Shown one piece after another: positions 8,872 through 30,746 of a DNA stretch of 64,000 nucleotides. A program made the position numbers and the translations under genes. Under the pieces are notes generated by a model that did not search any database, was not told where the DNA came from, and saw only the letters and a list, made by a program, of their open reading frames with translations. Location: positions 744,001-808,000 of the forward strand of contig NZ_CP049868.1 in NCBI RefSeq assembly GCF_011303555.1, given 5' to 3'. Position 1 is the stretch's first letter. Each line of letters opens with the position of its first letter. The DNA is from Pedobacter sp. HDW13 (GTDB taxonomy: Bacteria > Bacteroidota > Bacteroidia > Sphingobacteriales > Sphingobacteriaceae).

Positions 8872-10392
8872 TTACTTCAGTTCCAGCTCAATAACATTGG
8901 GCAGTGCGGTTCTTAATGCTGCCGGTACCTGTACAGTAAGTTGCCCGTTTGCTACGCTGTATTTAAGGGTAGCTTTATTGCCTGATAGACTTACATTTTT
9001 AATACTTCCCTTTGTGCTAAAAGTCACCTGCTCATCGATCGGTTTTTCACCCTTTTTATGAGCCAGTAAAAACAGGTAGCGGCGCTTGGCTGCTGCTGTG
9101 GCCGGTACCGATGCCGATTCGCTGGCATCGAGTGCCTGTGCACCTTTTATGGCACTGCCATTTACTTTCATCCAACCGGCAATTTCAGCCAGACTGGTGT
9201 ACATTTCAGGAGTAAGAACCCCTTCTTTAGTTGGCCCGTAATTTAACAGCATATTGGCGTTATTGGCCCTGCACTTGATCAGATTGTTGAGCACCAGCGC
9301 AACGGGTTTTAAAGGCTTTCCTGTATAGCCCCAGCCTCCATCGGTAATGGTGGTACAAAGTTCGGCCCAGCCATCTTGCTTGGTTTTGGGCAATGCTTTA
9401 TCCTGCTCAAAGGTTTTGTAATCGCCATAACCGAAAAACCTTGGACTTACCACAATGCCAGGTTGCAATCTATGGATTTCGGCCATGGTTATGCATTTAT
9501 CCCAGGCTTTATTTCCACGCGGAATATCGGCTGCTCCATCGAACCAGATCATATCAATCTGCCCGTAATTGCTTAATAGCTCAGTAACCTGCCCTTTTAC
9601 ATAAGCAGCCATTTCATTGTAATGGGCCTGCTTTTCAGCTTCGGTTTTTACGGTAATCCGAGGCCTTAAATTTTCATCCAGCACCGGGATATTTGGGTAA
9701 TCCCTACCTACCCCATAGTACATAAAATTTTGGAAATCGCCATTTTGGTGCCAGTCTGGTCCTGAGTAATAAATCCCAACCTTTAACCCATATTTTCTGC
9801 AGGCGGCCACATAATCTTTTATCAGATCGCGGCCACCCATGTAGTTTTTGGTATTGAAATTACCATAAGCGCTTGGCCACAGGGCAAAACCATCATGATG
9901 TCTTGCTGTAAGCACCGCATAAGTCATACCGGCTGCTTTGGCTGCTTTAATCCATTTTTCGGGGTCGTAGTTTTGAGGATTAAAGTTTTTGGCCAGTGCC
10001 CAATACTCAAGCGGAGTAATACAGCTGTTTGTTTTTTCGCAGCCATTTCCGGCAAAATAATTGCCCGAATCCATAATCTTTTTAACCGATGCCGAATCCA
10101 TCTTGGGCGAACGCCAGCCAATCTGGGTGCCGGCCATCATGGGCCACGAGAGATCTATTTGTTTAATCGATGAAATGCTCCAATGGATAAACATACCTAA
10201 ACCAGCCTCCGGAAACCACTGTGCTCCGGGGTGGGTGGTATGCTTGTAGCCCGATTTTGCATCTTCAACAATGCCAATCTGGGCGTGCTCCATTTTTACT
10301 TTATCGGCTTCTTTATTTTGTGCAACCGCAAGGTTAACAGTGCCAAGCAATGGCAAACATGCCAGGCACTTATATATTAAATTTCTTTTCAT
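8872..10392 (-). CDS. GH29 alpha-L-fucosidase
   Basis: Secreted 506-residue fucosidase, expected to release terminal alpha-L-fucose from oligosaccharides by a retaining mechanism. It has a signal peptide (1-25, ending VAQ). The catalytic barrel has FIHWS, the HHDGFALWPS segment and the nucleophile motif MIWFDG (Asp about 284), then a small C-terminal beta domain. Length and order match the GH29 family. It is the last gene of the susC-led operon, 21 bases downstream of the sulfatase gene. Together with the sulfatase it suggests a sulfated fucosylated substrate, although which fucose linkage it cuts cannot be seen. Confidence 0.93.
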   Translation of the reverse strand: MKRNLIYKCLACLPLLGTVNLAVAQNKEADKVKMEHAQIGIVEDAKSGYKHTTHPGAQWFPEAGLGMFIHWSISSIKQIDLSWPMMAGTQIGWRSPKMDSASVKKIMDSGNYFAGNGCEKTNSCITPLEYWALAKNFNPQNYDPEKWIKAAKAAGMTYAVLTARHHDGFALWPSAYGNFNTKNYMGGRDLIKDYVAACRKYGLKVGIYYSGPDWHQNGDFQNFMYYGVGRDYPNIPVLDENLRPRITVKTEAEKQAHYNEMAAYVKGQVTELLSNYGQIDMIWFDGAADIPRGNKAWDKCITMAEIHRLQPGIVVSPRFFGYGDYKTFEQDKALPKTKQDGWAELCTTITDGGWGYTGKPLKPVALVLNNLIKCRANNANMLLNYGPTKEGVLTPEMYTSLAEIAGWMKVNGSAIKGAQALDASESASVPATAAAKRRYLFLLAHKKGEKPIDEQVTFSTKGSIKNVSLSGNKATLKYSVANGQLTVQVPAALRTALPNVIELELK

Positions 10393-10413
10393 TGCTTAAA
10401 TCATGAATTAAGG

Positions 10414-11916
10414 TTATTTCCCGATAACAAAGGCATCTTTTGTTTTTTCCAGCCACTGCAGCAAAACTGACTGCAGCTTTGTTACAACGGGTAAACCCGG
10501 CTGGTAGATGTTATTAAGTTCGAAAGGATCTACTTTTAAATCGTAAAGCTCATATACGCCTTTGCCCTTTTTCTTCACAAAAGCCAGCTTATAGTCTTTG
10601 GTACGAATGCCCCTGAAACCGGTGTTGATGTTTACATTACTGCTGCCAATGGCTCCTAAAATGTACTGTTCGGCTGGTTTTTCACCTTTACCATTCAGGT
10701 AATACTGGGCGTAACTCTTACCATCTACATCTTTTGGTGTTTTATTTTTTAATCCCATCAAATCTAAAAGGGTTGGATAAATATCAGGCACACTGCCTAA
10801 AAAGGTATCATCTTTACGGGGCTGGATATGACCTTTCCAGTTTACAATGAAAGGAATCCGCAGCGACTCTTCAAAGATGTTGTTTTTGGATTCTTCGTCA
10901 TGTTTACCTAAACAGTTACCATGATCGGCCATAATGACCACAATGGTATTCTCCTCCAAGTGCTCATCTTTTAAGCCTTGTAAAATACGGCCAATCTGCT
11001 CATCTACGCCAGTAATATTGGCATAATAATAACGCACATCTTTACGGTACTGATCGCCAAATGCCGTACCTGCTGCCGGGATATTGGGATCTTTTACCAA
11101 ATCGGTCAAAGGAACATCTTTGTACAGGTTATAGTATTTTTCGGGTACGGTGCGGTAATTAGAGTGTGGCGGGTTCATGGAAACCACCAATGAGAAAGGC
11201 GCACCATTTTTACGGATTTTTCCGCTTTCGTTTCTAAAGTAAGCCAATGCTTTATCGGCTTCGTGCTCTGGTCCCCATTGGTTTACGTACTTAAAATCAT
11301 CGCGTTTATCGCCCGTATCCCAGTACATGGGTTTGTTGTGTTCATCGTAAGTACCATAAGCATACCAATAATCGAAACCATGCCTGCGCTCTGGTGCAGT
11401 CCACTCGTTCCAGGCTACTTTACCTGTGTTGTTTGAAGTAGGAATGTAAGGTGGGTAAGGCGAATCGAGGTGCCATTTACCGATGTAACCGTTCGAATAG
11501 CCGTTCTGTTTCAATACATCCGACCAGCATACGGCATCTTTTTGAAGCTCGATGCCGAAAGGGGCCGAACTGGAGTTTACATTGCTGTAAACATGGTTTT
11601 TGAGTGGGTATTGTCCGGTCATGAGCATGGCCCTGGCTGGCGAACAAACGGGGTAATTACTCACCATCTGGCTCAGCACCAAACTCTCTTTGGCATACTG
11701 ATCTAAATAGGGCGTCATTACCGGCTCGCGGCCTTCGAAACCCAGTGCCTGCCCTCTCCACTGATCGGCCATGATAATTAACAAATTTGGGCTAGTTTTA
11801 GCTTTCGTACCCTTTTGTGCCATGGCCGGGAACGCAACTAACAGGGATAGAAAAAACAGAATATACGGAGGATATTTTTTATTGCTCATTCGTCTTGGGT
11901 TTTTATCAGTTTTCAT
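10414..11916 (-). CDS. Formylglycine-dependent sulfatase (S1 family)
   Basis: Secreted arylsulfatase-type enzyme that would remove sulfate from a polysaccharide or oligosaccharide. The maturation motif CSPARAMLMTGQ (Cys about 91) is the site where cysteine is converted to formylglycine. Metal ligands are visible in IIMADQWRG near the N-terminus and in MADHGNCLGKH in the second half, and the C-terminal FELNN segment is typical of the family. The first Met (11916) gives a basic stretch before the signal peptide. A second Met at 11889 directly precedes the hydrophobic segment and is an equally good start. It lies between the beta-helix protein and GH29 genes in one operon. The Cys-type site needs a formylglycine-generating enzyme, and the only FGE-like gene here (32017-32697) lacks one key Cys. 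Confidence 0.92.
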   Translation of the reverse strand: MKTDKNPRRMSNKKYPPYILFFLSLLVAFPAMAQKGTKAKTSPNLLIIMADQWRGQALGFEGREPVMTPYLDQYAKESLVLSQMVSNYPVCSPARAMLMTGQYPLKNHVYSNVNSSSAPFGIELQKDAVCWSDVLKQNGYSNGYIGKWHLDSPYPPYIPTSNNTGKVAWNEWTAPERRHGFDYWYAYGTYDEHNKPMYWDTGDKRDDFKYVNQWGPEHEADKALAYFRNESGKIRKNGAPFSLVVSMNPPHSNYRTVPEKYYNLYKDVPLTDLVKDPNIPAAGTAFGDQYRKDVRYYYANITGVDEQIGRILQGLKDEHLEENTIVVIMADHGNCLGKHDEESKNNIFEESLRIPFIVNWKGHIQPRKDDTFLGSVPDIYPTLLDLMGLKNKTPKDVDGKSYAQYYLNGKGEKPAEQYILGAIGSSNVNINTGFRGIRTKDYKLAFVKKKGKGVYELYDLKVDPFELNNIYQPGLPVVTKLQSVLLQWLEKTKDAFVIGK

Positions 11917-11964
11917 TATGGGCAGCTGCGCCGGGTATGTGCTTATTTCTTTCTGTTGCTCTTC

Positions 11965-13554
11965 TTATTTTTCAGCCAGAATATCCTGTGCCTTAATTTT
12001 CTTTTTCTCTTCGGCTATCCACTGGGGTAATTTACCTAATCTTAATTCCAATTGGGCTTCAAATAACGATTCGGGTTGTACGGCCTTGCCCAGGCTTTCC
12101 AATACCTGTACCTGATCTTTATTGAAGGTGGTTTCGGCACCATGATAACCCACAATAATGGGCGGCACTATTTTCCACCAGATTGATTTGGCTGGCCAGA
12201 ATTCGAAATTCTTTCTGGCAGCACCTAACTGCTTGTAGTTCCACAGCACCAGATTACGGCCGTGGTTGGGCATATTAAATATGGCCCCTCCCGCCCTTCC
12301 GTCAGACAGGCCTCCTGTTACCTCATCAAGCAGGGTACATCGGGGTTGCGAGGAATGCGATTCGAAACAGGTATTTTCGGGGTACCTCGAACGCCAGATT
12401 ACGGTAGCTGTAGTGCTGCCGCCACCTACGCCCACAGCATGGTGCATACCGGTTAAATCGGTAATATTAGCCAATAAAATACCAGTCGAACCACCAGCGG
12501 CATCTACAGAGTTATGCCCCATGTTGCCGTCAAAAACCAAATCAATAGCTGTACAGGCTGCTGATGCGCCGATGGTTAAACCGTTACTTACATTGCGGAA
12601 CGAGCAGTTTCTAACCCACGAGTTTACCGATTTGTTTAAACTCAGGATACTCCATCCGCTATCATCCTGTGCTGAGCGGTGGTGCACAAATTTCTTTAGC
12701 CAGTTGCCTTCGAAAGCAATATTTTCGACCCCTACCTCGCTTAAATGGGCAAAGCCAGAAACGGTCCAGTGGTGTTTGGCCTGCACATCATAATGAATGG
12801 GTTCTACCAGTATAAGCTTGTTGCCCTCTACTTTAGCCACCTGATGGCGTTCATTAACCTGCACCCCTTTTTTAATCAGCGAAGCCCAGCTGGTATCGGG
12901 TTTTATGCCTTTTAAATCGTAATCAATTAGTTCGGGGCTGTTATTGGTTACCTCGAGGATAATCCAGTCGCCGGCCTTAATTTTAGAAGCATTACTTACC
13001 TCAATGATGTGGCTTTCGCGCGGGGCGTTGGCTGTTACATCAGCCAGTTTTTTATTGGCACCCTTTGCACCAATGTTTATGGCCATCGGTACCGACCACA
13101 TTTGCTTTGGATTGGCGGGAGGCAAATCTTTATCAAAAAACAAAACAGTGCCCCCTTCTCCGTTACCCGCGCCCCTGAGTACAATTTTCGACCCCGAAAT
13201 GCGGATCACCTGCTGGTCGTCGTTAGCGGTATTAAACAGGTACCTGCCCCTAGGGAAATAAATAATCCCTTCTCCGTTTTTTTCTGCCGCAGCAATCGCG
13301 CTTATAAATGCTTTTTTATCCGAAAGGTTATCGTTTGGAATAGCACCAAAGCTGGTTACATCGAAAACCTTATAGTTTACCGTGGGGATGGCTTCTTCGC
13401 TGTAGCGGTAGCCGGCATAAGAGAAATCGGGCAAAACAGGTGTGACACCTGTACTTTTTGCAGTTTTAAAATCTTGCCATATCGCGCTTTCCTGAGCCTG
13501 GAGCGATAAACTGCTGATGGTGATTAAACCAAAAATGATTCTTTTTAAAGCCAT
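11965..13554 (-). CDS. Secreted right-handed beta-helix protein, candidate polysaccharide lyase
   Basis: A 529-residue secreted protein (signal peptide ending LQAQ). Residues about 62-110 have the pectate-lyase-superfamily entry signature: VFDVTSFGA, then a DKKAFISAI helix and GIIYFPRGRYLF. Helix coils follow (IVLRGAG, VENIAFEG, WVRNCSFRNVSNGLTIG). The C-terminal part resembles the DUF4955-type region seen in Bacteroidota beta-helix proteins. I cannot identify catalytic residues. It sits between susD and the sulfatase gene. The locus also encodes a GH88 hydrolase, which requires unsaturated uronic ends, and no classical lyase is present. I therefore infer that this protein makes those ends. 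It could instead be a hydrolase or a binding protein. Confidence 0.75.
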   Translation of the reverse strand: MALKRIIFGLITISSLSLQAQESAIWQDFKTAKSTGVTPVLPDFSYAGYRYSEEAIPTVNYKVFDVTSFGAIPNDNLSDKKAFISAIAAAEKNGEGIIYFPRGRYLFNTANDDQQVIRISGSKIVLRGAGNGEGGTVLFFDKDLPPANPKQMWSVPMAINIGAKGANKKLADVTANAPRESHIIEVSNASKIKAGDWIILEVTNNSPELIDYDLKGIKPDTSWASLIKKGVQVNERHQVAKVEGNKLILVEPIHYDVQAKHHWTVSGFAHLSEVGVENIAFEGNWLKKFVHHRSAQDDSGWSILSLNKSVNSWVRNCSFRNVSNGLTIGASAACTAIDLVFDGNMGHNSVDAAGGSTGILLANITDLTGMHHAVGVGGGSTTATVIWRSRYPENTCFESHSSQPRCTLLDEVTGGLSDGRAGGAIFNMPNHGRNLVLWNYKQLGAARKNFEFWPAKSIWWKIVPPIIVGYHGAETTFNKDQVQVLESLGKAVQPESLFEAQLELRLGKLPQWIAEEKKKIKAQDILAEK

Positions 13555-13624: not shown

Positions 13625-15316
13625 TTACCAGCCCGGGTTATTTTCTGTTATTAATTTGTTCGACGACATTTCTAAAGAAGGAATGGGGAACAATAAATTT
13701 CTTGCCGTAACATTTTTGCCGCCTAAACCACCATATTGCTGGTTACCCGAAGTTAGTGCGCCAGTGGTAGGTGCAGCACCCATTTCGGCGCCAACCGAAT
13801 TCATGGTGCTTACAAATTTATTCCAGCGGATTAAATCCATACGGCGTAAACCTTCAAAACACAACTCGCGCATGCGCTCGTCTTCTATAGCTTGCTGAAA
13901 GGTAGCTTTGTTAAGTCCGGTCAAATCTGCCACAACACTTGCTGCCGCAACCGGCAACCCGTAACCTCTTCGGCGTACCTGGTTAATGGCATTGTAAGCG
14001 TCGGCTGTTGGACCATTTACCTGATTTTCAGCTTCAGCAAACATCAACAGGATATCGGCATACCGCAGCACCGGGAAGTTAATTCCGGTCTGGTTTTTAT
14101 CTTTAGGTGTAAGCAGTTCGTACTCCCTTCTCCATTTGGCCATATCCCTGCCGTATTGAACGGTTTTGGCAATAGCCGTTTTGGTAGCGGTATTGGTGGT
14201 ATTGTTAACGGTCCAGGTATAGGTTGTGAGTACCCAATCGCGGCGTAAATCTTTTCCGGTTGCATCGTATTTATTGTATAAACGCGCTGTTCCTTTTATA
14301 AAACCATAGCAATAACCCGGATAGGAATACAAGGGCGAATTGGCTGCCGATGGTGTCATGGTAATTCCCACCTGGCTCCCCAAAGGGCCCAGATCTAAGT
14401 AACCATCGGCACGGTTACCTTTAAATTCAATTTCCCACATGCTCTCTTTGGTGTTGTAAATCTCTTGCGCAGCATTGATGAATATCTGGCGGTAGGCATT
14501 ATTGGAATTGGCCGGTACTGATGGTAAAGTTTCGTTGAAACCATTAAAGGTAGCATCGGTACTAAAAGTTGTATTTAAGGCATGTTCGCCCGAGCTGATT
14601 ACTTTTTTAGTCCAGGCCAGTGCCTCGGCATATTTACCTGTATCGTTTAAAGGGTAGCCTGCCATTTGTAAACAAACCCTGGCTAAAATGCCTTGTACTA
14701 CCGTTTTTGAAACGCGGCTGGGGTAGCCAATTGCGGTAGAGGTTGCCACTTTTGTTTCGGCTGTGGTCATATCTTTCAATATCTGGGCATAAACATCAGC
14801 CGTTTTGGTGCGGGCTAACTGCACATCGTTAGGGCTTGTGGTTGGCACTAACCTTAAAGGCACATCGCCAAAACGGGTAACCAGCATAAAGTAGTAGTAA
14901 CCTCTTAAAAATAAAGCCTCGCCCAATATAATCTGCCGCTTGCCTTCATCCATTTGCGGTACATCAATGTGTGCAATTAAATCGTTGGCACGGTTAACTC
15001 CGGTATAAAGGTCGGTCCATAAATTGGTTACGTTGGTATTGGAAGGATCGAAATTAAATACCTGTATGCCGGTTACTGTACCCGAACGGGCATAATAGCC
15101 CTCATCGGTACAAGCTTCGAAACCATTTGGCAAATTGCCGTACACATTACCCGAACCCAGCGGATCGTACACCCCTGCCAATGCCTGGGTTAAGCCTGTT
15201 TCATCGGTATAATATTGTTCAAGAGCAATTTTATCGGTTGGCTGGGTATCTAAGAATTTCTTACAAGAGCTGCTGGCAATGGCCACCAAAACTAATAATA
15301 CATATATCTTTTTCAT
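13625..15316 (-). CDS. susD: SusD/RagB-like glycan-binding lipoprotein
   Basis: Outer-membrane surface lipoprotein that captures oligosaccharide and closes over the SusC channel. The first reasonable start is ATG at 15316, giving a lipoprotein signal that ends SSSC followed by KKFLDTQPTD, the classic SusD N-terminus. The longer frame from 15358 would overlap susC and spoil the signal. TPR-like helices follow (GEALFLRGYYYF, ARVCLQMAGYPL). The C-terminal RYADILLMFAEAENQ, a DERMRELCFEGLRR motif and LFPIPSLEMSSN complete the fold. About 563 residues, normal for the family. It starts 19 bases after the susC stop and is followed by the beta-helix gene in the same operon. Confidence 0.95.
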   Translation of the reverse strand: MKKIYVLLVLVAIASSSCKKFLDTQPTDKIALEQYYTDETGLTQALAGVYDPLGSGNVYGNLPNGFEACTDEGYYARSGTVTGIQVFNFDPSNTNVTNLWTDLYTGVNRANDLIAHIDVPQMDEGKRQIILGEALFLRGYYYFMLVTRFGDVPLRLVPTTSPNDVQLARTKTADVYAQILKDMTTAETKVATSTAIGYPSRVSKTVVQGILARVCLQMAGYPLNDTGKYAEALAWTKKVISSGEHALNTTFSTDATFNGFNETLPSVPANSNNAYRQIFINAAQEIYNTKESMWEIEFKGNRADGYLDLGPLGSQVGITMTPSAANSPLYSYPGYCYGFIKGTARLYNKYDATGKDLRRDWVLTTYTWTVNNTTNTATKTAIAKTVQYGRDMAKWRREYELLTPKDKNQTGINFPVLRYADILLMFAEAENQVNGPTADAYNAINQVRRRGYGLPVAAASVVADLTGLNKATFQQAIEDERMRELCFEGLRRMDLIRWNKFVSTMNSVGAEMGAAPTTGALTSGNQQYGGLGGKNVTARNLLFPIPSLEMSSNKLITENNPGW

Positions 15317-15335
15317 CTTGAAATAATTTATTTGA

Positions 15336-18300
15336 TTAAAATGTAAGGTTTGTACCAAAAACTATAGTACGGGCACGCGGATAGGCAGAGAAATCAAATC
15401 CTGGTGTTAAAACCGAACGGTAGGTATTTACCTCAGGGTCTCCTCCCGAATATTTGGTCCAAGTGGCCAGGTTTTGTGCCGATACAAAGAATCTTAGCGA
15501 TTTAAGGTAAATTTTCTTAATCACCTTCGGATCGAGATTATAGCCCAGCGATACTGTTTTTAGCCTCAGGTAAGAACCATCTTCTACATAGTTTGATGAA
15601 TATCCGCCTCCAAAAAAGCCCCTGGTACGGAACATCTCCGATTCGGCATTTTGTGGTGTCCATCGGTTTTCATAGCTCGCATATTGATTAAAATTACCCA
15701 GGCCATTTGTATTTCCTTCGAACAGCATTTTATTGGCATTTAAAAGATCGTTACCGTACGACCATTGGAAGAAAACATTTAAATCAAAACCCTTATAGGT
15801 AAAATTATTAGAAAAACCACCGGTGTGGGCTGGTAAACCATTTCCTATTTTAACGTAATCCTGGGCATTTACCACACCATCGCCATTTTGGTCTTTATAT
15901 TTAATATCGCCCGGCTGAATGGTTGCCCTGGTATTTCCGTTGGTAGCAACCTCTGGTTTTAAGGTATAAACGGTAACACCGCTGCCATTAACGGAGGTAT
16001 TAAAATCGGCATATTTATAAGTACCCAACCACTCGTAACCATACATAGAACCTAAAGGCTGGCCTACTTCGGCCACATAAGCGCTTACGTTACGCCAGGC
16101 GGCATCCCAGTTAATGGTACTCTCGAGGGTGTTTTGCCCTTCAGCTAGCGAAATTAGTTTATTGCGGTTAAAGGCAATATTGGCATTGGTAGTCCAGGTA
16201 AAATTTTTAGTAACAATGTTTTGAGTAGTTAAGGTTAACTCCAAACCCCTGTTTTCTACACTACCAATGTTTTTTAATGCGGTACCAAAGCCTGCCGATG
16301 GTGGCAATTGGGTGTTTAACAATAAATCTTTGGTTACTTTTCTATATACATCGGCACTGAAGGTAATTCTTTGCTTAAAAAAGCCTAAATCAATACCGGC
16401 ATCTACCTGTTCGGTAGTTTCCCATTTCAAATCGGAGTTACCCAGTTTGGTTGGGATTACACCCGGTACGTATTCGTTGTTGAAAGTGTAGGTATTTACA
16501 ATCGGATTGAAATAATTGGTCAGGTAATCGAAATCGCCTACGCGGTTGTTACCGGTTTGTCCGTAACTCACACGCAATTTACCTTCTGATAGTATTTTAG
16601 ATTTTTTGAGGAAATTTTCCTGATCAAACCGCCAGGCAATAGCTGCCGAAGGGAAGTAACCCCAATGGTTTTGGCTTGGAAATTTAGAAGATCCATCGGC
16701 CCGGTAAGAGGCAGTAAATAAGTATTTAGAATCGTAGTTGTAATTAATACGGCCTAAAAAAGAAGCCATGGTCCAGTCGGATGCAGAAGGATCGACCCTT
16801 TGTTGTACGCCCTGATCAAAACCATCAAACATCAGGTCTTCGTTAGGCAATTGGGTTACTGAGCGGCCATTGCTCCAAGTGTGTCTTTTTTGAAGTGTAA
16901 ATCCTCCTAACAGGTTTAACTTCGACTTTTTGCTTATTTTTTTATCCCAGGTAAGCGTGTTTTCGTTTAACCAGTTACTGTAATTGTTATTGCTGATTCT
17001 TCCATTTACGCCGTTTACTCCTCCCGGGCGACCTGCAGAGGTTTTGGTGTTGTTGAATACATCATTTTCGGATTTATTTTCGATAATACCGAAAGATGAT
17101 CTCAGTTTTAAATCTTTAAGAATTGCATATTCGGCATAACCATTGGCGGTAATGTTGTGTGTAGTGGTTACATTGTACGAATTCTGCAAGCTGATAACCG
17201 GATTGATACGATAATCGTTCGCGGCGTTCATATCCGGATCCTGGAAAGAATCTTCGAGATCAAACACTTCGGAAGGAACTGGCCTCATGCCCAGAATAGA
17301 AGTCATTACGTTGGTAGTAGCACCATTTTCGCCCCTGGTGGGGTCGATTCCTTTTTGTTTAAGGAAGCTGTAATTGGCGTTGATACCTACTTTTAACTTA
17401 TCGGTAATGGCATAATCGATCACCGCACGGCCGGTGTATCTCTGATAATTTGAATTTAATAAAATACCGTTTTGGTTAACTGTTGAAGTAGAAACTGCGT
17501 ATTTCAGTTTTTTGGTTCCGCCTCTTACGGCAAAATCGTTGTTATTGTACACAGCTGTGCGCGAAACCAAATCCTGCCAGTCAATCGGGCTAACACCATT
17601 GTAATAATCAACGGTTTTTCCATCGGTAAGATAAATTTGCGTAGGTGTAGCTGGTGTTCCGGTTAAAGCAGGCGTAAGTTCTAGCTGGTATTTTACATAC
17701 TCGTAAGGACTCATCATTTCCATTTTTTTGGCCATGCGCTGCACGCCCAATGTACTCGAGAAACTAAATACCGGTTTACCCTGTTTACCTTTTTTGGTTG
17801 TAATTACCACTACCCCATTGGCGCCACGGGCACCGTAAATAGCGGTTGCCGATGCATCCTTTAAAATGTCTATCGATTCGATATCGGCCGGATTAACCAC
17901 ATTGTTATTGGGATCTTCGATCAGGAAACCATCTACCACATACAAAGGGCTGTTGGCCTGCGTAACCGAGTTATTACCACGGATCACAATATCAACACCT
18001 GAACCCGGGCGGCCATCGGCCGAGGTTACCTGCACCCCGGCTACACGACCTGCTAAAGCCTCATCGAAAGAACGTACCGGTGCTTTGTTTAACTCGGCCA
18101 TTTTAACCGAGCTTACCGAACCTGTAAGGTCTTTTTTGGCTACCGTACCATAGCCCACTACCACCACCTGATCCAGGTCGTTGTTTTGTTCGGCTAAGGT
18201 TACATTTATCGTTTTTTGTTGATTTACAGTTACCTCTTTGGCGTGGTAACCTACGTATCTGAATACCAAAACCGCTGTCTGATCGGTAGGTACACTAATG

Positions 18301-18485
18301 CTGTATTCGCCCTGTGCCCTGGTGGTAACGCCACCTTTGGTTGTACCTTTAATACTTATACTAACACCGGCTAAGGTTTCGCCGGTTTTTTGATCGGTAA
18401 CAGTTCCGGTTATTATCTTACTCTGCTGGGCAGAACTCGAAAAGACGGTCAGTAGGAAGACTGAAAATAGCAGAATTCTTCTCAT
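15336..18485 (-). CDS. susC: SusC/RagA-type TonB-dependent outer membrane transporter
   Basis: Outer-membrane beta-barrel of 1049 residues that imports oligosaccharides with SusD, using TonB energy. It has a signal peptide (1-19), a carboxypeptidase-regulatory-like domain (about 23-100, ITGTVTDQKTGETLAGVSI), then the SusC plug with VVVGYGTVAKKDLTGSVSSV and the plug motifs PLYVVDGF and DASATAIYGARGANGVV. The barrel ends in aromatic FGTNLTF. No N-terminal STN domain is present, so control is likely through the HTCS rather than an anti-sigma factor. It is the first gene of the operon. A TAAATTTG box (18534-18527) and a 21-bp-phased direct repeat (18566-18591) lie upstream. Confidence 0.96.
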   Translation of the reverse strand: MRRILLFSVFLLTVFSSSAQQSKIITGTVTDQKTGETLAGVSISIKGTTKGGVTTRAQGEYSISVPTDQTAVLVFRYVGYHAKEVTVNQQKTINVTLAEQNNDLDQVVVVGYGTVAKKDLTGSVSSVKMAELNKAPVRSFDEALAGRVAGVQVTSADGRPGSGVDIVIRGNNSVTQANSPLYVVDGFLIEDPNNNVVNPADIESIDILKDASATAIYGARGANGVVVITTKKGKQGKPVFSFSSTLGVQRMAKKMEMMSPYEYVKYQLELTPALTGTPATPTQIYLTDGKTVDYYNGVSPIDWQDLVSRTAVYNNNDFAVRGGTKKLKYAVSTSTVNQNGILLNSNYQRYTGRAVIDYAITDKLKVGINANYSFLKQKGIDPTRGENGATTNVMTSILGMRPVPSEVFDLEDSFQDPDMNAANDYRINPVISLQNSYNVTTTHNITANGYAEYAILKDLKLRSSFGIIENKSENDVFNNTKTSAGRPGGVNGVNGRISNNNYSNWLNENTLTWDKKISKKSKLNLLGGFTLQKRHTWSNGRSVTQLPNEDLMFDGFDQGVQQRVDPSASDWTMASFLGRINYNYDSKYLFTASYRADGSSKFPSQNHWGYFPSAAIAWRFDQENFLKKSKILSEGKLRVSYGQTGNNRVGDFDYLTNYFNPIVNTYTFNNEYVPGVIPTKLGNSDLKWETTEQVDAGIDLGFFKQRITFSADVYRKVTKDLLLNTQLPPSAGFGTALKNIGSVENRGLELTLTTQNIVTKNFTWTTNANIAFNRNKLISLAEGQNTLESTINWDAAWRNVSAYVAEVGQPLGSMYGYEWLGTYKYADFNTSVNGSGVTVYTLKPEVATNGNTRATIQPGDIKYKDQNGDGVVNAQDYVKIGNGLPAHTGGFSNNFTYKGFDLNVFFQWSYGNDLLNANKMLFEGNTNGLGNFNQYASYENRWTPQNAESEMFRTRGFFGGGYSSNYVEDGSYLRLKTVSLGYNLDPKVIKKIYLKSLRFFVSAQNLATWTKYSGGDPEVNTYRSVLTPGFDFSAYPRARTIVFGTNLTF

Positions 18486-18526
18486 AACACTAATTCAATA
18501 AAAGTTTATAGTTGGTTGTTTGGTAT

Positions 18527-18534
18527 CAAATTTA
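18527..18534 (-). promoter_or_regulatory. Candidate susC -7 promoter element
   Basis: Minus-strand TAAATTTG matches the Bacteroidota -7 consensus TAnnTTTG and lies 42 bases upstream of the susC ATG. No clear -33 TTG is present at the usual distance. This fits a promoter that needs an activator bound at the adjacent direct repeat. Confidence 0.5.
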
Positions 18535-18559
18535 CCCCCAGTTGTAAATTTAGGGGGTA
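18533..18559. promoter_or_regulatory. TACCCCC inverted repeat in the susC promoter
   Basis: TACCCCC (18533-18539) and GGGGGTA (18553-18559) form a perfect 7-bp inverted repeat with a 20-bp centre spacing. It sits between the -7 box and the AAGGA direct repeat. A T-run follows on the plus strand, but no plus-strand gene reads towards it. A protein-binding site is therefore more likely than a terminator. Confidence 0.4.
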
Positions 18560-18565
18560 TTTTTT

Positions 18566-18591
18566 TCCTTTTAAAGGTGAAATTTATCCTT
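18566..18591 (-). promoter_or_regulatory. Direct-repeat operator upstream of susC (candidate HTCS site)
   Basis: On the minus strand two AAGGA half-sites are exactly 21 bp apart (plus-strand TCCTT at 18566-18570 and 18587-18591), embedded in A-rich flanks. The same layout recurs upstream of the GH88 gene (20046-20071) with extended similarity. AraC-type output domains commonly bind direct repeats spaced by two helical turns, so this is a plausible target of the HTCS at 20205-24269. Confidence 0.55.
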
Positions 18592-18616
18592 TTCTCACCT
18601 GCGCTTAAAAGTTTTA

Positions 18617-19885
18617 CTAATATAATTTTAGTCCGGCATTTAGCTTCTTGTACCTGAGTAATGCCTCCATAAAATAGTAATCGGCATATACCAAAGGTAC
18701 ATCGATCTGGCTGTTGTGCGGAATCGATCCTATATTGTGTTTCAGAATAAAATCGGCATTGGTACCTGTTGCCGCAAAGTATGCTGGTGTGGCTAGCGAA
18801 TGAAGCATTTTTACGGCTGCATCTTTATACTTTTTGGCAGTTTTACCTGTAGTATAGGTACTCAGTTCTAACAAGGCCGATGCGGTAACCGCTGCTGCCG
18901 AAGCATCGCGGTATTTTACGTTAATGTTATTGGCATTGGAGTTTACACCAGGCTTATAGCCGATCTGATTGGCATTAAAGTCCCAGTAAGGAACGAAATC
19001 GGTAGGCAGATTTTTACTGTCGATAAAATAGTTGGCTAAACCCTGGGCCATTTTTAAAAAGCGAACATCTTTGGTTTCGCGGTAGGTCATGGTATAACCA
19101 TATATAGACCAGGCCTGGCCACGTGCCCATGTTGAGTTATCTGAATAGCCCTGTGCAGTTTCGCGTGCCAGCACCTTCCCTGTTTTATCATCATAGCAAA
19201 CTACGTGGTAAGAACTGTAATCGGGTCTGAACTGGTTTTTCATTGTAGTAAGTGCATGTGTAATGGCAATGTGCCTGAAACTGGTATCGCCCGATATTTT
19301 TGAGGCAGCAAACAGCAACTCCAGGTTAATCATGTTATCGATAATTACGGGAAAATTATAGCTCTCTTTGCCATGCCACGATTTAAATACATTCCACGAT
19401 TTAATGCAACCTGTAACGGGGTTAAAGCGGGTGCTTAATGCTTTGGCCGAATTAATTAAAACCTGCTTATAGTTTTCGTTTTGGGTAAGCCTGTAAGCAT
19501 TGCCGTAGCTGCAGTACATCATAAAACCCAAATCGTGATGCTCGGTAAAGTTTTGCAGGGGCGCTAACTTTTCTGTCCACTGGATGGCCTGTGCTTTTAG
19601 TGCGGCATCTTTATTGGCCTCGTAAGCATACCAGAGGTTGCCCGGGAAAAAGCCGGTAGTCCACTCGTACAGGCCACCACTGCGCAGCTTCCCTTCTTTA
19701 TCGGTTGTTTGCGGAAAAGCTGTAGCCGTAAGGCTTTTGCTGCCCAACATTTCTTTTACCTGTTTTTGGCACAGGGCCAGGTTATGCGTAATAAACTTTT
19801 CTTCGGTTTGGGCTTTGGTTGTACTCGTTATAGTGGTTAACGAAGCAAAAGTAAAAGCGGCGATCAGTAAATTTCTCTTTATCAT
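18617..19885 (-). CDS. GH88 unsaturated uronyl hydrolase
   Basis: Secreted enzyme of 422 residues that hydrolyses the 4,5-unsaturated uronic acid left at the non-reducing end by a polysaccharide lyase. The signal peptide ends TKAQ. The alpha/alpha barrel has HHDLGFMMYCSYG and VIIDNMINLELLF, which carry the two Asp residues expected for catalysis, and SDNSTWARGQAW. I place the start at ATG 19885 because it directly precedes the signal peptide. The open frame continues 76 codons upstream, but that extension covers the putative operator at 20046-20071 and has no protein-like character. The gene lies upstream of susC on the same strand with its own control region. Its presence implies lyase activity in the pathway. 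Confidence 0.92.
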   Translation of the reverse strand: MIKRNLLIAAFTFASLTTITSTTKAQTEEKFITHNLALCQKQVKEMLGSKSLTATAFPQTTDKEGKLRSGGLYEWTTGFFPGNLWYAYEANKDAALKAQAIQWTEKLAPLQNFTEHHDLGFMMYCSYGNAYRLTQNENYKQVLINSAKALSTRFNPVTGCIKSWNVFKSWHGKESYNFPVIIDNMINLELLFAASKISGDTSFRHIAITHALTTMKNQFRPDYSSYHVVCYDDKTGKVLARETAQGYSDNSTWARGQAWSIYGYTMTYRETKDVRFLKMAQGLANYFIDSKNLPTDFVPYWDFNANQIGYKPGVNSNANNINVKYRDASAAAVTASALLELSTYTTGKTAKKYKDAAVKMLHSLATPAYFAATGTNADFILKHNIGSIPHNSQIDVPLVYADYYFMEALLRYKKLNAGLKLY

Positions 19886-20204
19886 TTTTAATTTGGTTAG
19901 TGCATGCCTGTTTCCAGGTGTATCCGGTTCTTTTCGTTCTGTAAAAGGTGGTGTAAATGTTGTAAGCCTCCATGTGGCACTGTTTACCCGGCCTTTTGTC
20001 TTATTCGAAATTGCTGTAGTTCTGCCAGTTGAAGGGTAATTTTTTTCCTTAAAAAGGGTAAATATTTCCTTTTCATTCCTAAATTTGATTATTGCTAATG
20101 CAAATCGCTTCATCCCGGTTAGATATTAGGAACGATTGCCAGTAATAATAGCGCTACCCAATAGCATTTAAACCAAATAACAAGCAGAACTTAACGACAA
20201 AAAT
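19886..20204. other. Control region between GH88 and the HTCS gene
   Basis: This 319-base divergent region holds the second copy of the AAGGA direct repeat (20046-20071) and must contain promoters for the GH88 gene (minus) and the HTCS gene (plus). No RNA gene is visible. Confidence 0.55.
20046..20071 (-). promoter_or_regulatory. Direct-repeat operator upstream of GH88 (candidate HTCS site)
   Basis: Plus-strand TCCTT occurs at 20046-20050 and 20067-20071, giving the same 21-bp phase as upstream of susC. Flanks are also alike: a T7 run precedes the first half-site and TCCTTTTC covers the second. It lies about 160 bases upstream of the GH88 start, and on the other side about 134 bases before the HTCS start. 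It could therefore also mediate autoregulation. Confidence 0.5.
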
Positions 20205-23200
20205 TTGAAGGCTCTTCGATTTTCATTGGTATTGATATGGCTTTACTGCATTTTTTTTAATGCCACTAAAAGCCACGCCCAAAGTAGCCAACTAATTTTC
20301 AACCATTTAAACATCAGCAATGGCTTGTCTAACAACTCGGTGTTATCTATCAATCAGGATACTACAGGCTATATCTGGCTGGGTACAAAATACGGTTTAA
20401 ACCGCTTTGACGGTCGCACATTCAGGATTTTCAAAAACGACCCGCAAAATACTGGTTCAATCTCTTCAAACGATTTTATTAAATGCCTAGAAATAAGGAA
20501 CGACCAGCGCATGTGGGTAATAAACAGTGGTTTAGACCTATACAACCCCGTTAACGAATCTTTCGAGCATATTATGCCAATTGGCTCAGGGATTACCAAA
20601 ATTGTAGAGGATAAACAAAAGCAACTTTGGATAGCCTCCTTAACCGGATTAAAATTTATTGCGGCAAACAGTAAAAAAATTATTCCCATTCAGCTGGGTA
20701 AAGGCAGTAACGAGGTTAGCGAAATTTTTGAAGATAGGGATCAGCATATCTGGGTAGGTACTTCGGTTGGCTTATACGAACTTTTTTTCAGCAACAAAAA
20801 GCTAAAGGTCCTGTTGCATCAGGAGGCTGCGTTTGATGTATTTTATGGCAACCAGATTAAAGCCATTGCACAGGATAAAAACGGCAATTTGTGGTTTGGC
20901 ACCAAAACCAATGGCATACAAATCCTGAATATGGCTACCAAAAAGATTAGCCACTTTGCCAAAAACGGTGCCGATAAAAGAAACCTGGTTAACAATAACA
21001 TCCGGAAAATCATTTCGGTTAAAAATGGCAAGATGTGGATTGGCACACAGGATGGCCTCTCTATCGGCGATCCGGATTCGTTTACTTTTCAGCATTACCA
21101 GCACGATGTTACCGATGCAAACAGTTTAAGCCAAAACTCCATTCATGATATTTTTCAGGATAAAGACGGCTCGGTTTGGATAGGTACTTTTTTTGGTGGC
21201 GTAAACGTGGTGTATGCGGTTAATACCCCTTTTAAAAGCTATCAGAATAACCTCTCGCCCAATAGCATCAGCAGCAGTATAGTAAGCGCTATAGTCGAAG
21301 ATAAACAGCATAACCTGTGGGTAGGTACCGAAGCTGGTGGTTTAAATTATTTTAACAGGCAGAGCAATCAATTTATCAGCTATAAGAATTCGCCAGCCGA
21401 TACAAACAGCCTTAGCTCCAATCTGGTTAAATCGATAGCGATTGATCAGTATCAGCATGTACTAATCGGCACATCAGTTGGAGGCTTAAGTTATTTTGAT
21501 CCTCAAACCGGAAAATTTACAGTGTACAAGCGCAAGGGGATTGGAAATAACAGCAACAATATCGCATCCGACAATGTGAACTGCCTGCTGGTGAGCCGCG
21601 GGCAGCAGGTACTGGTTGGTACCGACGAAGGGTTAAACCTTTTTGATCCTTTAACCAAACATTTTCAGCTGTTAAATTTAGCCGGTAGCAACAGCAGATT
21701 TAATAAAAAAATTACTGCACTCTTTCAGGATCGCCAGAACAAGATCTGGATTGGTACACCAGCCGGCTTATACAGCCTCTCGCCTAACCTGACCATACAG
21801 CCTGAAAATTACAAAGGTGAACCAGACCATGCATTTAAGTTGAATATTAACTGCATTCAGCAGGATAGTGAAGGAAATATCTGGCTGGGTACTTACCACA
21901 AAGGTTTAGCCCTGCTCAATCAGCGCAATAAAACCTTCGAGCTGTTTAACTATAAAAACAACCTGCCCAGCGATAACATTTTAAGCTTGGTTGAAGACAA
22001 TCAAAACAATTTATGGATTGGTACCGATAATGGTTTGGTAAAATACGATCGCAAAGCCCGCTTTTTCAGGAGTTTTAACATGCTGGATGGCTTGCCCGAC
22101 AATCAGTTTAACACCAGCTCTTTTTACAAAGCTGCCAACGGAGCATTGTTTTTCGGCACCTTTAACGGCCTTGTTACCTTCGATCCGCAGAAAATAGAAA
22201 AAAACAATACTGCCCCTCAAGTGGTGCTTTCGAACTTAAAGCTTTTTAATAACCCGGTTAAAATTAATGATGAAACCAGGCTGCTTACCGAAGATATTAA
22301 CTTGAGTAAAAACATCACTTTTAACCACCTGCAGAACAATTTTACCTTAGAGTTTTCGGCACTAAACTTTATAAAACCGAGTAAAAACAAATATGCCTAT
22401 AAGCTGGAAGGTTTTGAAAGCAACTGGAACAATGTCGAAGTACCCACTGCCACCTACACCAATTTATCAGCAGGAACTTATACCTTTCTGGTTAAGGCAA
22501 CCAATAACGATGGCATTTGGAGCAGGGAAATCAAATCGGTTACCATTACCGTTTTACCGCCAATATGGAAAACCATCTGGGCTTATTTGCTTTATGCCAT
22601 AGCCATTTACTTTATTGTGGCCTACATCATTAAATTTTTCAAGGCGAAGGCTAAGCTAAAGCAAGAGCTTTATCTGGAACATATTGAAGCGGAACACCAG
22701 AAGAAAAATTACCAGATGAAGCTGGATTTCTTTACCAACATATCGCATGAAATACGAACACCACTTACGCTTATTTTAGGGCCACTGGAGAAGCTTGAAG
22801 AGATTACCACCAATAATACCGTTGTACACCAATACGCTTTAACCATTAAGAACAATACCGAGCGGTTGTACCGCCTGGTAAACGAGCTGCTCGACTTTAG
22901 AAAAGCCGATTCTGAAAATCTGCGCTTGTACTTTGCCGAAACTGATATTGTGGCTTTTTTACGCGGCGTGTTTGAAAATTTTGCGCACCTTGCTGAAGCC
23001 AAAAACATAACTTATACTTTTAAAACAACTGATGAAGCCATACCCGTTTATTTTGATAAAAACCAAATGGAAAAGGTATTCTTCAATTTATTATCAAATG
23101 CCTTTAAATTTACACCTGCCGATGGCGAAATTAGCTTGGTGATTGAACAAAACTGCCTTGAGCAAGTTTCTGTTACGGTTAACGACAATGGGAAAGGCAT

Positions 23201-24269
23201 TGCACTTTATAACATCGACGATATTTTCAAGAATTTTTATCAGGAAGACCAAAGTATGGGTACCGGTATTGGCCTGGCACTATCTAAAAAACTGGTAGAA
23301 CTACACCAGGGAGAGGTCATGGTAAACAGCAGGTTAGCTACAGCAAATGAACGGGGTTTCACTGCTTTTAAAGTATTGTTACAACTGGGCAATAGCCATT
23401 TAACAGGGGCTTATACCGGCGAAGCAGCCGTATCTGAAGCCTACCAACTGCAACACGAGCCCGATTATGCTACCGAAAGCCCGCTTACCGAAACAACAGC
23501 CGCCGCTAACAATAATAAGCCCTCTGTTCTGATTGTAGAAGATAATAAGGAGTTGAGAGATTTCATTAAGCAATCGTTAGCCAATGATTATGATGTACAG
23601 GTGAGTGAGAACGGTTTGCAGGGCTGGGAAATTGCAAGCACTACCCTACCTGATCTGATTATCAGCGACATTATGATGCCGGTTATGGACGGGCTAACCT
23701 TTTGCAAAAAAATCAAAACCGATGTCCGCACCTCACACATCCCGGTAATTCTGCTCACGGCAAAATCGGCACAGGTACATGAAATACAAGGTTTAGAACA
23801 CGGCGCTGATGTGTATATTACCAAACCTTTCAGCAACAAAATTCTTCAGCTTAATATCCATAACATGCTGGCTTTAAAAACGGCCATGCAAAAGAAATAC
23901 AGCGATCAGCTGCAACTGCCTCCAATTATCCAGCAGCCAAATGCTTCGGCTGATGAAAAGCTGTTATCGAAACTACAGCTTGTTATTGAAGAGAATTTAG
24001 CCAATGCCGATTTCGATATTGTAGCCTTAACTTTAGAAATAGGGATGAGTAAATCGGTACTTTATAAAAAATTTAGTGCGCTTACTAATCTTTCGTTAAA
24101 TGAGTTTATTAAAACCCAGCGTTTAAAACATGCCGTTACGCTACTCCAGCAGGGAGAAACATCTATTCTTTCGGTAGCTGTGCAGGTAGGCTTTAACGAT
24201 GTAAAGTACTTTAGCCGCGAGTTTAAAAAGGTTTACGGCATTACACCAAGCCACTACATTAAAAATTAA
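20205..24269 (+). CDS. Hybrid two-component system sensor/regulator (HTCS) of the PUL
   Basis: Membrane-bound 1354-residue sensor and transcription activator, probably controlling the adjacent susCD operon. A signal peptide ending SHAQ is followed by two Reg_prop propellers (IWLGT, IWVGT, LWIGT repeats) to about residue 690, then a Y_Y_Y domain (715-785) and one membrane helix (about 795-815). The kinase core has H-box NISHEIRTP (His about 848), FFNLLSNAFKF, DNGKGI and GTGIGLAL. The receiver has VEDNKE and the phospho-acceptor Asp in ISDIMMP (about 1155). A C-terminal AraC HTH ends GITPSHYIKN. The only sensible start is TTG at 20205, since no ATG precedes the signal peptide nearby. Divergent from GH88. 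Confidence 0.94.
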   Translation: MKALRFSLVLIWLYCIFFNATKSHAQSSQLIFNHLNISNGLSNNSVLSINQDTTGYIWLGTKYGLNRFDGRTFRIFKNDPQNTGSISSNDFIKCLEIRNDQRMWVINSGLDLYNPVNESFEHIMPIGSGITKIVEDKQKQLWIASLTGLKFIAANSKKIIPIQLGKGSNEVSEIFEDRDQHIWVGTSVGLYELFFSNKKLKVLLHQEAAFDVFYGNQIKAIAQDKNGNLWFGTKTNGIQILNMATKKISHFAKNGADKRNLVNNNIRKIISVKNGKMWIGTQDGLSIGDPDSFTFQHYQHDVTDANSLSQNSIHDIFQDKDGSVWIGTFFGGVNVVYAVNTPFKSYQNNLSPNSISSSIVSAIVEDKQHNLWVGTEAGGLNYFNRQSNQFISYKNSPADTNSLSSNLVKSIAIDQYQHVLIGTSVGGLSYFDPQTGKFTVYKRKGIGNNSNNIASDNVNCLLVSRGQQVLVGTDEGLNLFDPLTKHFQLLNLAGSNSRFNKKITALFQDRQNKIWIGTPAGLYSLSPNLTIQPENYKGEPDHAFKLNINCIQQDSEGNIWLGTYHKGLALLNQRNKTFELFNYKNNLPSDNILSLVEDNQNNLWIGTDNGLVKYDRKARFFRSFNMLDGLPDNQFNTSSFYKAANGALFFGTFNGLVTFDPQKIEKNNTAPQVVLSNLKLFNNPVKINDETRLLTEDINLSKNITFNHLQNNFTLEFSALNFIKPSKNKYAYKLEGFESNWNNVEVPTATYTNLSAGTYTFLVKATNNDGIWSREIKSVTITVLPPIWKTIWAYLLYAIAIYFIVAYIIKFFKAKAKLKQELYLEHIEAEHQKKNYQMKLDFFTNISHEIRTPLTLILGPLEKLEEITTNNTVVHQYALTIKNNTERLYRLVNELLDFRKADSENLRLYFAETDIVAFLRGVFENFAHLAEAKNITYTFKTTDEAIPVYFDKNQMEKVFFNLLSNAFKFTPADGEISLVIEQNCLEQVSVTVNDNGKGIALYNIDDIFKNFYQEDQSMGTGIGLALSKKLVELHQGEVMVNSRLATANERGFTAFKVLLQLGNSHLTGAYTGEAAVSEAYQLQHEPDYATESPLTETTAAANNNKPSVLIVEDNKELRDFIKQSLANDYDVQVSENGLQGWEIASTTLPDLIISDIMMPVMDGLTFCKKIKTDVRTSHIPVILLTAKSAQVHEIQGLEHGADVYITKPFSNKILQLNIHNMLALKTAMQKKYSDQLQLPPIIQQPNASADEKLLSKLQLVIEENLANADFDIVALTLEIGMSKSVLYKKFSALTNLSLNEFIKTQRLKHAVTLLQQGETSILSVAVQVGFNDVKYFSREFKKVYGITPSHYIKN

Positions 24270-28488: not shown

Positions 28489-30746
28489 CTACTCATAACC
28501 ATTCTCAAAGGTCACAGTTTGCTTTGGTTTAAGCTTTATCTCAGCAATTCCATCATCACCCATTTTTACACTTCCTGCAGGTACATCTTTAGCTACATAA
28601 GTTTTAAAAGGGAGCTTAACCCGTAGCAAACCGCCTTTCTCAGCATAGATTTTTACTTTTGCAGGCACACCATTTTCTTTGGCAGCACTTACCAAAAAGG
28701 CACCTTCGGTACGTAAATCTTTAAATGAAACATTAGCCCAGCTTTGCGGCACTGCCGGGAAAACCTGTATATAACCGTTACGGCTTTGCACCAGCAACTC
28801 CTGCAGGCCTTGTGCAAAGGCAAAGTTACCTTCGAGCGTGAACGGCCGATAGGTGAAACCTGAATATTGGCCACCTTTCTGATCGCCGTTTAAATGGAAA
28901 CTGTTTGCAGAACAGAAATTACTGGCAAAGATTTCGAGTTGTTTTACCGCTTTATCTGCCTGGTAAGCCCTGGCGTACAAAGAAGCCATCCAGCTAAAAG
29001 AGTAACCGCACCAGGCTCTGGTACCCATTTCTTCAATGCGTTTTAAAGAGTTATCGATTACTGTTTTATCTTTTTCTTTATTGGCATCAAGCAAATCGAG
29101 CGGGTAAATGGCCATATATTGCGACATATGGCGGTGCGAGCTGGTTAAATTTGATCCCGGTGCAATGGTAAATCCGGTTTCGTTAATTTCGTATTCAGGC
29201 AATTGACTCAAAACAGTTAACCAGTGTTTGCGCTCGGCTTCTTTACCGTTGGCCTGGCTTACTTCGGCGGCGGCCTTAAATAAAAACTTAGCCAGCGATA
29301 AATCGAAATTGGTCCATTCTAAAAACCAGGCTTTAATGCTATTATCGTTAAACTCTGGACTGGAGCTTAACGGTAATTTACGCACACCGTCCTTTAACCG
29401 GGTAATGTTTTCTAAGAAAGTTGCGGCATCATGAATGTATGGATAGGCTCTTGTTTTCAGAAAAGCATCGTCCATACTGTATTTCCACTGCCAGTAAAAG
29501 TGCTGCGAAGCCCAGGCCCCAACGGTTGGCGAAAGCGAATACTGGATCCAGCCGCCCATAGGGTCGCCGTTTAGCGTAACCACCCCCGGCACATTCAAGC
29601 CTGCAACACCAAAATACTGTTTAGTATAGCTCAGGTTGCGGTTTCTGATTTTCCAAAGCCAATCGGTAAAGGTTGCCCTTCGGCCAGGCGGTTACCGGTG
29701 TAAGTTGGCCAGTAGCTTAACTGGGTATTGAGGTCGTTATGAAAATCGCCTTTCCACGGTGGTAAACTACCGTTATCGGCTGTCCAAACGGCCTGTAAAG
29801 TAATGGCTGGTGCGCCTTTACGGGCTACGCTACCCAATTTATACATTTCGAGGTAATATTGCTTCTGAATAACCGGATCGGGTACCGAAATGCTGGATTT
29901 ACTCCAGAAATTTTTCCACCAGGCGGTGTGTTGAGGCCAGCCTGTAGGCTCTTTAGCAGTTGCAGAAATAGCAGGCAAGCTTGCGGTTTTATCGCTGGTA
30001 ATGGTCCAAGAGCCAATAACTTTGTTCTTGCCTGTTTTTTGCCATTGCACCAGTACTTCAAAATAATGGCCATCGTAGGTAGGTTGATGATAACGTACGC
30101 TATTGGCGGTGTTTACAACCGTGCCCTTTCCGTAACCCAGTTTTTGCAAACCTACACCAGCATGGCTGTTATCGCCTTTCTCGGTTTGGTTATTGCTGTA
30201 ATTGTGTACAATCAGGGCTGGCAACAAATCGGTAGCTTTTAAGTCGCTGAAACTGAAATAGCCACGTTGTTCGGTAGCATGAATGTAACAGTTAAATACG
30301 GTTCCGTTATCGAATTTAATGGTATTTAAAGCGGTTTCGATATCGAGATCGTTGGCTACCACTTTACCCAGTTTAGCCAGATCAAACTCCATAGCGGCAG
30401 CAGGCAGTTTAGTTGGGAACGGGCTCCTATCGTAAGGTTCATCGCCCAGTTTTTGTACGGCAGCATAATTGTTTTTATGTACCTGCTCTTCAACCCATTT
30501 GAAGTTGAATTTAGAAATGTCCATCGCTTTGCGCTCGTCCCATAAATCGGCACGATCTAAAGAAAGGCGAAGTTTATTGTTCTTCTCCCATATTAATACA
30601 CCAAGCATACCGTTACCGAGTGGCATGGCTTCATCCCACTTATCGGCAAGTTTAGGAAAGGAAAGATTGTAAGGTTTTAACCTTTGTGCGTAACCTGCAA
30701 AAGAAAAGCAGATAAGCAGTAAGAGGATAGTGACTTTAGTTTTCAT
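28489..30746 (-). pseudogene. GH95-type alpha-L-fucosidase/galactosidase, frameshifted
   Basis: Two consecutive frames encode one GH95 protein of about 752 residues. The first half (from 30746) has a signal peptide ending GYAQ, the family start AMPLGNGMLGVLIW and the catalytic-domain entry WKGDFHNDLNTQLSYWP. It then leaves frame after EGQP. The second half resumes with DWLWKIRNRNLSYTKQYFG and GLNVPGV, which is read in the other frame before any start codon, and contains the family segment LSSSPEFND. One extra T in the short T-run at 29668-29670 (coding strand TTT) would join them as GQPFTDWLWK. It is either a sequencing deletion or a recent inactivation. If intact it would remove alpha-1,2-linked fucose or galactose, and could cooperate with the GH29 of the PUL. 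Confidence 0.9.

Follow-up and report, generated by a model that had tools for sequence, protein, structure and literature searches.

Hybrid two-component systems (HTCSs) control many Bacteroidota glycan loci, and few of their operators are known. A stretch of 64,000 nt from Pedobacter sp. HDW13 (NZ_CP049868.1, assembly GCF_011303555.1, positions 744,001 to 808,000 of the forward strand; hereafter the window), part of a 6.38-Mb genome, raises the question of whether a direct repeat found upstream of two PUL genes is the operator of the HTCS encoded next to them. The genes concerned are as follows:

15336 to 18485, minus strand: SusC-type TonB-dependent receptor, first gene of a presumed operon
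13625 to 15358, minus strand: SusD
8872 to 13554, minus strand: remainder of the presumed operon (DUF4955/pectate-lyase-like protein, sulfatase, alpha-L-fucosidase)
18617 to 19885, minus strand: GH88 gene, corrected start (open frame to 20113)
20205 to 24269, plus strand: HTCS, presumed regulator, with Reg_prop/Y_Y_Y sensor, HisKA, HATPase, receiver and AraC-type helix-turn-helix (HTH)

GH88 lies upstream of SusC, and the HTCS is divergent from GH88. Sensor propeller, HisKA, HATPase, receiver and AraC-type HTH are all found in the single chain encoded at 20205-24269; its HTH matches Pfam HTH_AraC and HTH_18, and the nearest solved chain by sequence, 12aw, is itself an HTCS protein. Not far from a sulfatase-carrying PUL, an FGE-sulfatase (sulfatase-modifying factor) domain protein is encoded at 32017-32697 on the plus strand. 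Adjacent minus-strand ORFs at 28489-29598 and 29631-30746 match successive parts of GH95, and that gene looks split in two.

The first-pass annotation had described a pair of plus-strand TCCTT motifs 21 bp apart, occurring once before susC and once before GH88 with similar flanks. These pairs (TCCTT-N16-TCCTT, or AAGGA-N16-AAGGA on the minus strand) are present at 18566-18591 and 20046-20071, with no third match anywhere in the window; 0.09 matches are expected there, and none of 100 shuffles contained two or more. Both sites are flanked by a T7 run, whose final T is the first base of TCCTT, and by a trailing TCCTTTTC. The repeat is real, but the unit had been drawn too short, since these flanks belong to half-sites of about 17 bp. 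An ungapped alignment of eight sites gives a full element of about 43 bp, composed of two such half-sites with a 21-bp period and, in our reading of the alignment, the consensus AAGGAARATTTTNCYCC. The two 43-bp stretches of the window share 34 of 43 positions; the runner-up match to the susC copy among non-overlapping stretches of the window reaches 27 of 43. A genome-wide search for AAGGA-N16-AAGGA without flanks returned 24 copies against 28 for the reversed pattern, so the bare 5-mer pair is not specific. The concern that many copies might turn up in unrelated coding DNA was thus partly borne out for the bare pair, which is no commoner than its control, whereas the full motif has its only two strong genomic matches at the window sites. 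The elements, which precede both presumed minus-strand transcription units, GH88 and susC, are:

18552 to 18594, minus strand: susC predicted operator, 43 bp, two half-sites of about 17 bp
18575 to 18591, minus strand: promoter-distal half-site of the susC predicted operator, AAGGATAAATTTCACCT
18554 to 18570, minus strand: promoter-proximal half-site of the susC predicted operator, AAGGAAAAAAATACCCC
20032 to 20074, minus strand: GH88 predicted operator, equivalent 43-bp element
20055 to 20071, minus strand: promoter-distal half-site of the GH88 predicted operator, AAGGAAATATTTACCCT
20034 to 20050, minus strand: promoter-proximal half-site of the GH88 predicted operator, AAGGAAAAAAATTACCC
18533 to 18559, minus strand: inverted repeat TACCCCC-N13-GGGGGTA, running from the final part of the proximal half-site into the beginning of the predicted susC -7 box

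The inverted repeat has a counterpart in the relative G197, with one additional G in the right arm; by eye, no inverted repeat stands at the equivalent place on the GH88 side.

Sites of this type have precedents. For Bacteroides thetaiotaomicron, the account in PMC3878776 reports predicted motifs for 16 of 36 HTCSs, all of them direct repeats with an average of 21 bp, and HTCS_Man is given there two 16-bp sites with a 5-bp spacer; Ravcheev et al. (2013) proposed in the same paper a dimer bound to one DNA face at a distance of two helix turns. HTCS receiver-DNA-binding domains have also been used in EMSA on promoters with predicted sites, as described in PMC11253607. The window elements resemble the operators predicted in PMC3878776 in these features of that account: each consists of two conserved sites repeated directly at a distance of about 21 bp, it lies upstream of HTCS-linked PUL genes and operons, and it is conserved upstream of orthologous genes where the orthologous regulator is present. 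They differ from the B. thetaiotaomicron operators of that account in belonging to another organism group and in another HTCS specificity (AAGGAARATTTTNCYCC). Because HTCS direct repeats averaging 21 bp have been published (PMC3878776), the type of site is already known; what is new here is that the motif is longer and sharper and keeps a constant distance to the promoter, which provides a spacing rule.

Relatives of the locus were sought in 201 family genomes; three HTCS candidates were scored per genome, and the resulting HTCS list is therefore incomplete. The best listed relatives of the regulator show 95% (G197), 61% (G040), 48% (G192), and 46 to 47% (two G150 loci) identity. As had been recommended, the upstream regions of orthologous PULs were compared, and the repeat is kept on both the susC and GH88 sides in G197 and G192 and on the GH88 side in G040. 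The GH88 box of G197 is identical at 43 of 43 positions and its susC box carries 2 changes in 43, while third codon positions of the susC, GH88, and HTCS genes are 82 to 88% identical between the window and G197. AAGGA has partly drifted to ACGGA or AGGGA in G192. G150 carries one site upstream of each of its two HTCS genes, and the gene after one of them (the C47 training site) encodes an astacin peptidase, atypical for a PUL. As a separate observation, the 319-bp gap between GH88 and the HTCS (19886-20204) is 98 to 100% identical to that of G197, with GH88 and HTCS third codon positions at 82 to 84%; this near-identity may reflect constraint beyond the operator or a recent exchange. Rfam gave no match at gathering score in 18400-20400, and the GH88 leader stretch 19886-20006 has no marked folding advantage over shuffles (z = -0.71).

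A profile built from the eight sites, window sites included (R1), ranked the susC site first and the GH88 site second in the Pedobacter genome, with E-values of 8e-9 and 5e-8 for the window sites and nothing else below 0.15, R1 having been trained on both. A leave-out profile (R2) was made from the five sites of G040, G192, and G150 only, whose HTCSs are 46 to 61% identical to that of the window. With R2, for which 150 of 2776 first-look candidates were scored, the GH88 site took rank 1 (E 0.059, model positions 2-32 only) and the susC site rank 2 (E 0.106); the next matches stood at 0.153, and the margin is thin. Across the 201 family genomes, with 31 candidates scored per genome, R1 yielded at least 150 matches at E up to 0.05, and at least 109 of the genomes contained one or more; many of the matches listed are weak. 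After removal of nine sites, namely the eight in R1 and the GH88 site of G197, a 43-mer that duplicates one of these, 141 listed untrained matches were left. For eleven of them a listed HTCS relative stands no more than 1.5 kb away, where about 0.2 would be expected if matches were evenly spread, since the listed HTCS zones sum to 1.03 Mb of a total that we estimate from genome sizes at about 0.9 Gb. Four of the eleven share their contig, in G150 or G040, with a training site and seven do not; one, in G084, falls inside an HTCS gene.

The gene following an untrained site was checked where the site was high-scoring or near an HTCS, a scan that left out G150 C47c, G175, G014, G018, and G040 C24:17524. 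SusC-type receptors follow the sites of G040 C15a, G105, G110, G085, G076, and G015, and a SusC-type fragment lies downstream of G150 C55b. Other genes in this position encode GH3 (G150 C55c), a sulfatase (G166), a polysaccharide lyase (G192 c), and GH31 (G004), and a receiver-domain ORF comes next at G150 C47b. The genes after G040 C15b and G192 2.17M had no Pfam match, and the ABC transporter after the G199 site looks unrelated to PULs.

The sites also stand at a fixed distance from a presumed promoter element. According to PMC7366714, TAnnTTTG is the Bacteroidota -7 box, which PMC9723704 places at -12 to -5 in Flavobacterium psychrophilum, and these papers give for sigma-A promoters a TTTG at -33 besides TAnnTTTG at -7. 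The two boxes of the locus fit this element to different degrees:

18527 to 18534, minus strand: predicted susC -7 box TAAATTTG, perfect TAnnTTTG, ending 25 bp past the predicted operator
20006 to 20013, minus strand: weak -7-like box of GH88, CAATTTCG, with TTTC where most other sites show TTTG

TTTG, the core of this box, ends at +25 or +26 past the 43-bp model in 6 of 9 sites (the training set plus the G197 duplicate); in the remaining three the position is taken by TTTC (two sites) or TTAG. Among 20 examined untrained sites of the 141 listed, 13 have a TTTG whose end falls at +25 to +28. The seven without it comprise G040 C15a (TTTA at +26), G040 C24:17524, and five sites with no listed HTCS nearby (G199, G175, G014, G018, and G004). 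When ten of the eleven HTCS-adjacent untrained matches were examined, nine had TTTG at +25 to +28. Over a scan from 4 to 60 in 19 untrained sites, TTTG ends 13 times at +25 to +28 and 7 times at the other 53 offsets. In a control of 20 among the best other matches, none of which lies within 1.5 kb of a listed HTCS and which are unmatched in coding and AT content, TTTG occurs at +25 to +28 in 0 of 20. This control came from 25 loci (L243-L267) minus the HTCS-adjacent L244, L249, and L251, counted in the untrained set instead, and the shorter L259 and L264; the five misses named above as having no listed HTCS nearby belong to both sets. The TA part of the -7 box is often degenerate across sites.

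As far as titles and abstract openings of the open-licence literature go, a fixed HTCS-to-minus-7 spacing is not announced. The available portions of PMC12125979 and PMC11501099 give none either, and the main text of PMC3878776 contains neither "TTTG" nor "transcription start" (0 occurrences), its account of the motifs mentioning no fixed -7 spacing. A half-site consensus combined with a fixed -7 distance provides a rule to scan for and test, instead of a vague repeat.

Taking the numbering of PMC9723704, in which TTTG ends at -5, the proximal half-site would span about -49 to -33, around the place of the -33 element. The predicted susC promoter is like the Bacteroidota sigma-A promoter in its perfect TAAATTTG and would be unlike it, by this inferred numbering, in having the proximal half-site at the -33 place (as far as PMC7366714 and PMC9723704 describe that promoter).

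Each of the two sites is, in our judgment, very probably an operator of the HTCS encoded at 20205-24269. The first-pass annotation had proposed a site for the neighbouring HTCS, bound by an AraC-type dimer over two helical turns, and this proposal gains support from conservation at orthologous loci, from the HTCS-adjacent matches, from the TTTG spacing, and from the published architecture. Binding, activation, its control by phosphorylation, and the identity of the binding regulator we infer from the DNA sequence. The sensor of the HTCS would detect an oligosaccharide, and phosphorylation would release the AraC-type DNA-binding domain. Two monomers could then occupy the two half-sites of about 17 bp in tandem on the same DNA face, and the two helix-turn-helices would recognize the upstream (AAGGA) and downstream (NCYCC) boxes of each half-site. 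Because the proximal half-site ends near -33 when the TTTG ends at -5, the activator could stand in for the -33 element and bring the housekeeping sigma factor to a -7 box of the TTTG type lying a fixed distance away. The susCD-DUF4955-sulfatase-fucosidase operon and GH88 would thereby be switched on together.

A comparable arrangement exists in Escherichia coli, where AraC binds araI1-I2, two direct half-sites of about 17 bp with a 21-bp period, of which the proximal one reaches the core promoter. AraC senses arabinose as a soluble protein and acts at a promoter with sigma70 -35 and -10 elements. The predicted tandem half-sites described here share the length of about 17 bp, the 21-bp period, the presumed contact of the proximal half-site with the core promoter, and the presumed tandem arrangement of AraC-type domains, with the kinship of the regulators gauged by the Pfam HTH_AraC and HTH_18 matches; unlike the E. 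coli case, the regulator here would be a membrane HTCS and the promoter would have the Bacteroidota -7 box.

Weighing against assigning the sites to the neighbouring HTCS are the thin R2 margin, the weak GH88 -7 box, the astacin-peptidase gene after the G150 C47 training site, the unmatched TTTG control, the flat lag-21 result for SusC promoters, the modest family-wide association and the unclean DNA-binding-domain rule described below, and the presence of another HTCS gene in the window:

4328 to 8329, minus strand: second HTCS

The PUL is thus flanked by two HTCS genes, and paralogues exist elsewhere in the genome, so the sites might be operators of a different regulator, either this second HTCS or an unlinked AraC-type protein, with the neighbouring HTCS acting elsewhere. 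We consider this unlikely. In four further genomes the motif goes together with the closest relatives of the 20205 HTCS, and untrained matches are concentrated beside such relatives, whereas identity between the second HTCS and the G197 orthologue of the 20205 HTCS is only about 31%. It also has another SusC on its far side: the second HTCS adjoins phosphoesterase and GH3 genes, and a SusC lies at genome positions 739178-742258, just left of the window. The second HTCS probably serves this neighbouring locus with the phosphoesterase, the GH3, and the SusC outside the window. The stretch upstream of that SusC, at genome 742 kb, where the gene start is uncertain, contains no 21-bp repeat above background (10/17); its top self-match is 12/17, at lag 30.

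For the copy before GH88, conservation as protein code has also to be weighed, since an open frame runs across it:

19886 to 20113, minus strand: 76-codon in-frame leader covering the GH88 predicted operator; TAG in G197; probably not coding

The warning that this copy lies inside an open frame joined to GH88 holds as far as the frame is concerned, which is open to 20113 across the predicted operator; the leader itself is probably non-coding. The GH88-side copy might owe its conservation to coding for an N-terminal extension of GH88, which would agree with this open frame and with the near-identity of the 319-bp gap to G197 (98 to 100%). In G197, however, a TAG interrupts the frame of the leader, and by eye a hydrophobic sequence resembling a signal peptide begins at 19885; we regard this reading as very improbable. 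Given the TAG and this start, the leader is most likely untranslated and GH88 most likely begins at 19885, in which case an automatic start at 20113 would be wrong. The finding thereby flags a site that ORF-based annotation may hide in an over-long GH88 gene. Chance repeats in AT-rich intergenic DNA, suggested by a bare pair no commoner than its reversed control (24 versus 28), are the least credible explanation, given the 34 of 43 identities between the two sites, the conservation in relatives, and the fixed -7 spacing, and because the leave-out ranking and the co-occurrence of untrained matches with HTCS genes speak strongly against chance for the full motif.

How far the layout extends in the HTCS family was considered in 161 upstream regions, those of HTCS relatives and the two of the window, a set that was not deduplicated and in which some regions are partly coding. 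The best 17-bp self-match averaged 10.76 for lag 21, 10.27 for lag 22, and between 9.33 and 10.06 for the remaining lags from 12 to 45, and a self-match of at least 13/17 was reached by 16 regions at lag 21, 16 at lag 22, and 0 to 7 at other lags. For the -7 spacing, 130 deduplicated regions were scored for boxes resembling the -7 element, with no more than one mismatch, at +20 to +31 beyond the repeat. Such boxes accompanied 18 of 52 bin counts with lag-21/22 repeats versus 21 of 173 at other lags (p = 0.0004; one region may enter more than one bin), and 12 of 45 versus 21 of 168 (p = 0.02) without the orthologues of the window site, a modest association. From these self-match peaks and box counts, a phase of 21 to 22 bp is general among HTCS upstream regions and a phylum-wide -7 spacing is suggestive.

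That HTCS promoters across Bacteroidota follow one rigid layout, with tandem AraC-type half-sites at 21 to 22 bp, the proximal one in place of the -33 element, and TTTG of the -7 box at a fixed 25 to 28 bp, is a generalization that we find plausible while leaning slightly against it; the rigid layout is well supported in this HTCS subfamily and only suggested phylum-wide. If it were true throughout the phylum, PUL regulons and their promoters could be read directly from sequence. Of the 56 SusC promoters of the Pedobacter genome itself, the 30 examined (among them L205, with a mis-set start) show no peak at lag 21 (mean 9.73/17), perhaps because many are controlled by sigma/anti-sigma pairs, and a small excess at lag 22 (mean 10.33, with 6 of 30 at 12 or more).

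The DNA-binding domain may vary in part along with the motif. The segment MSKSVLYKK, which we take from the layout of the AraC family to lie in the first helix-turn-helix, is identical in the HTH region of the regulators of the window, G197, G040, G192, and the two G150 loci. In some lineages the first box changes along with the HTH segment. Paralogues with MSQPVLYKK (L147, L152, and L153, the last at 3.25 Mb of the Pedobacter genome) have repeats phased at 22 bp, in which the first box is changed and the ATTTTACCCC part is similar, as would fit a first helix-turn-helix that reads the first box. The rule is not clean: in G076 (MSKSVLYKK) and in G105, G110, and G085 (MSKTVLYKK), AAGGA is kept in the proximal half-site only.
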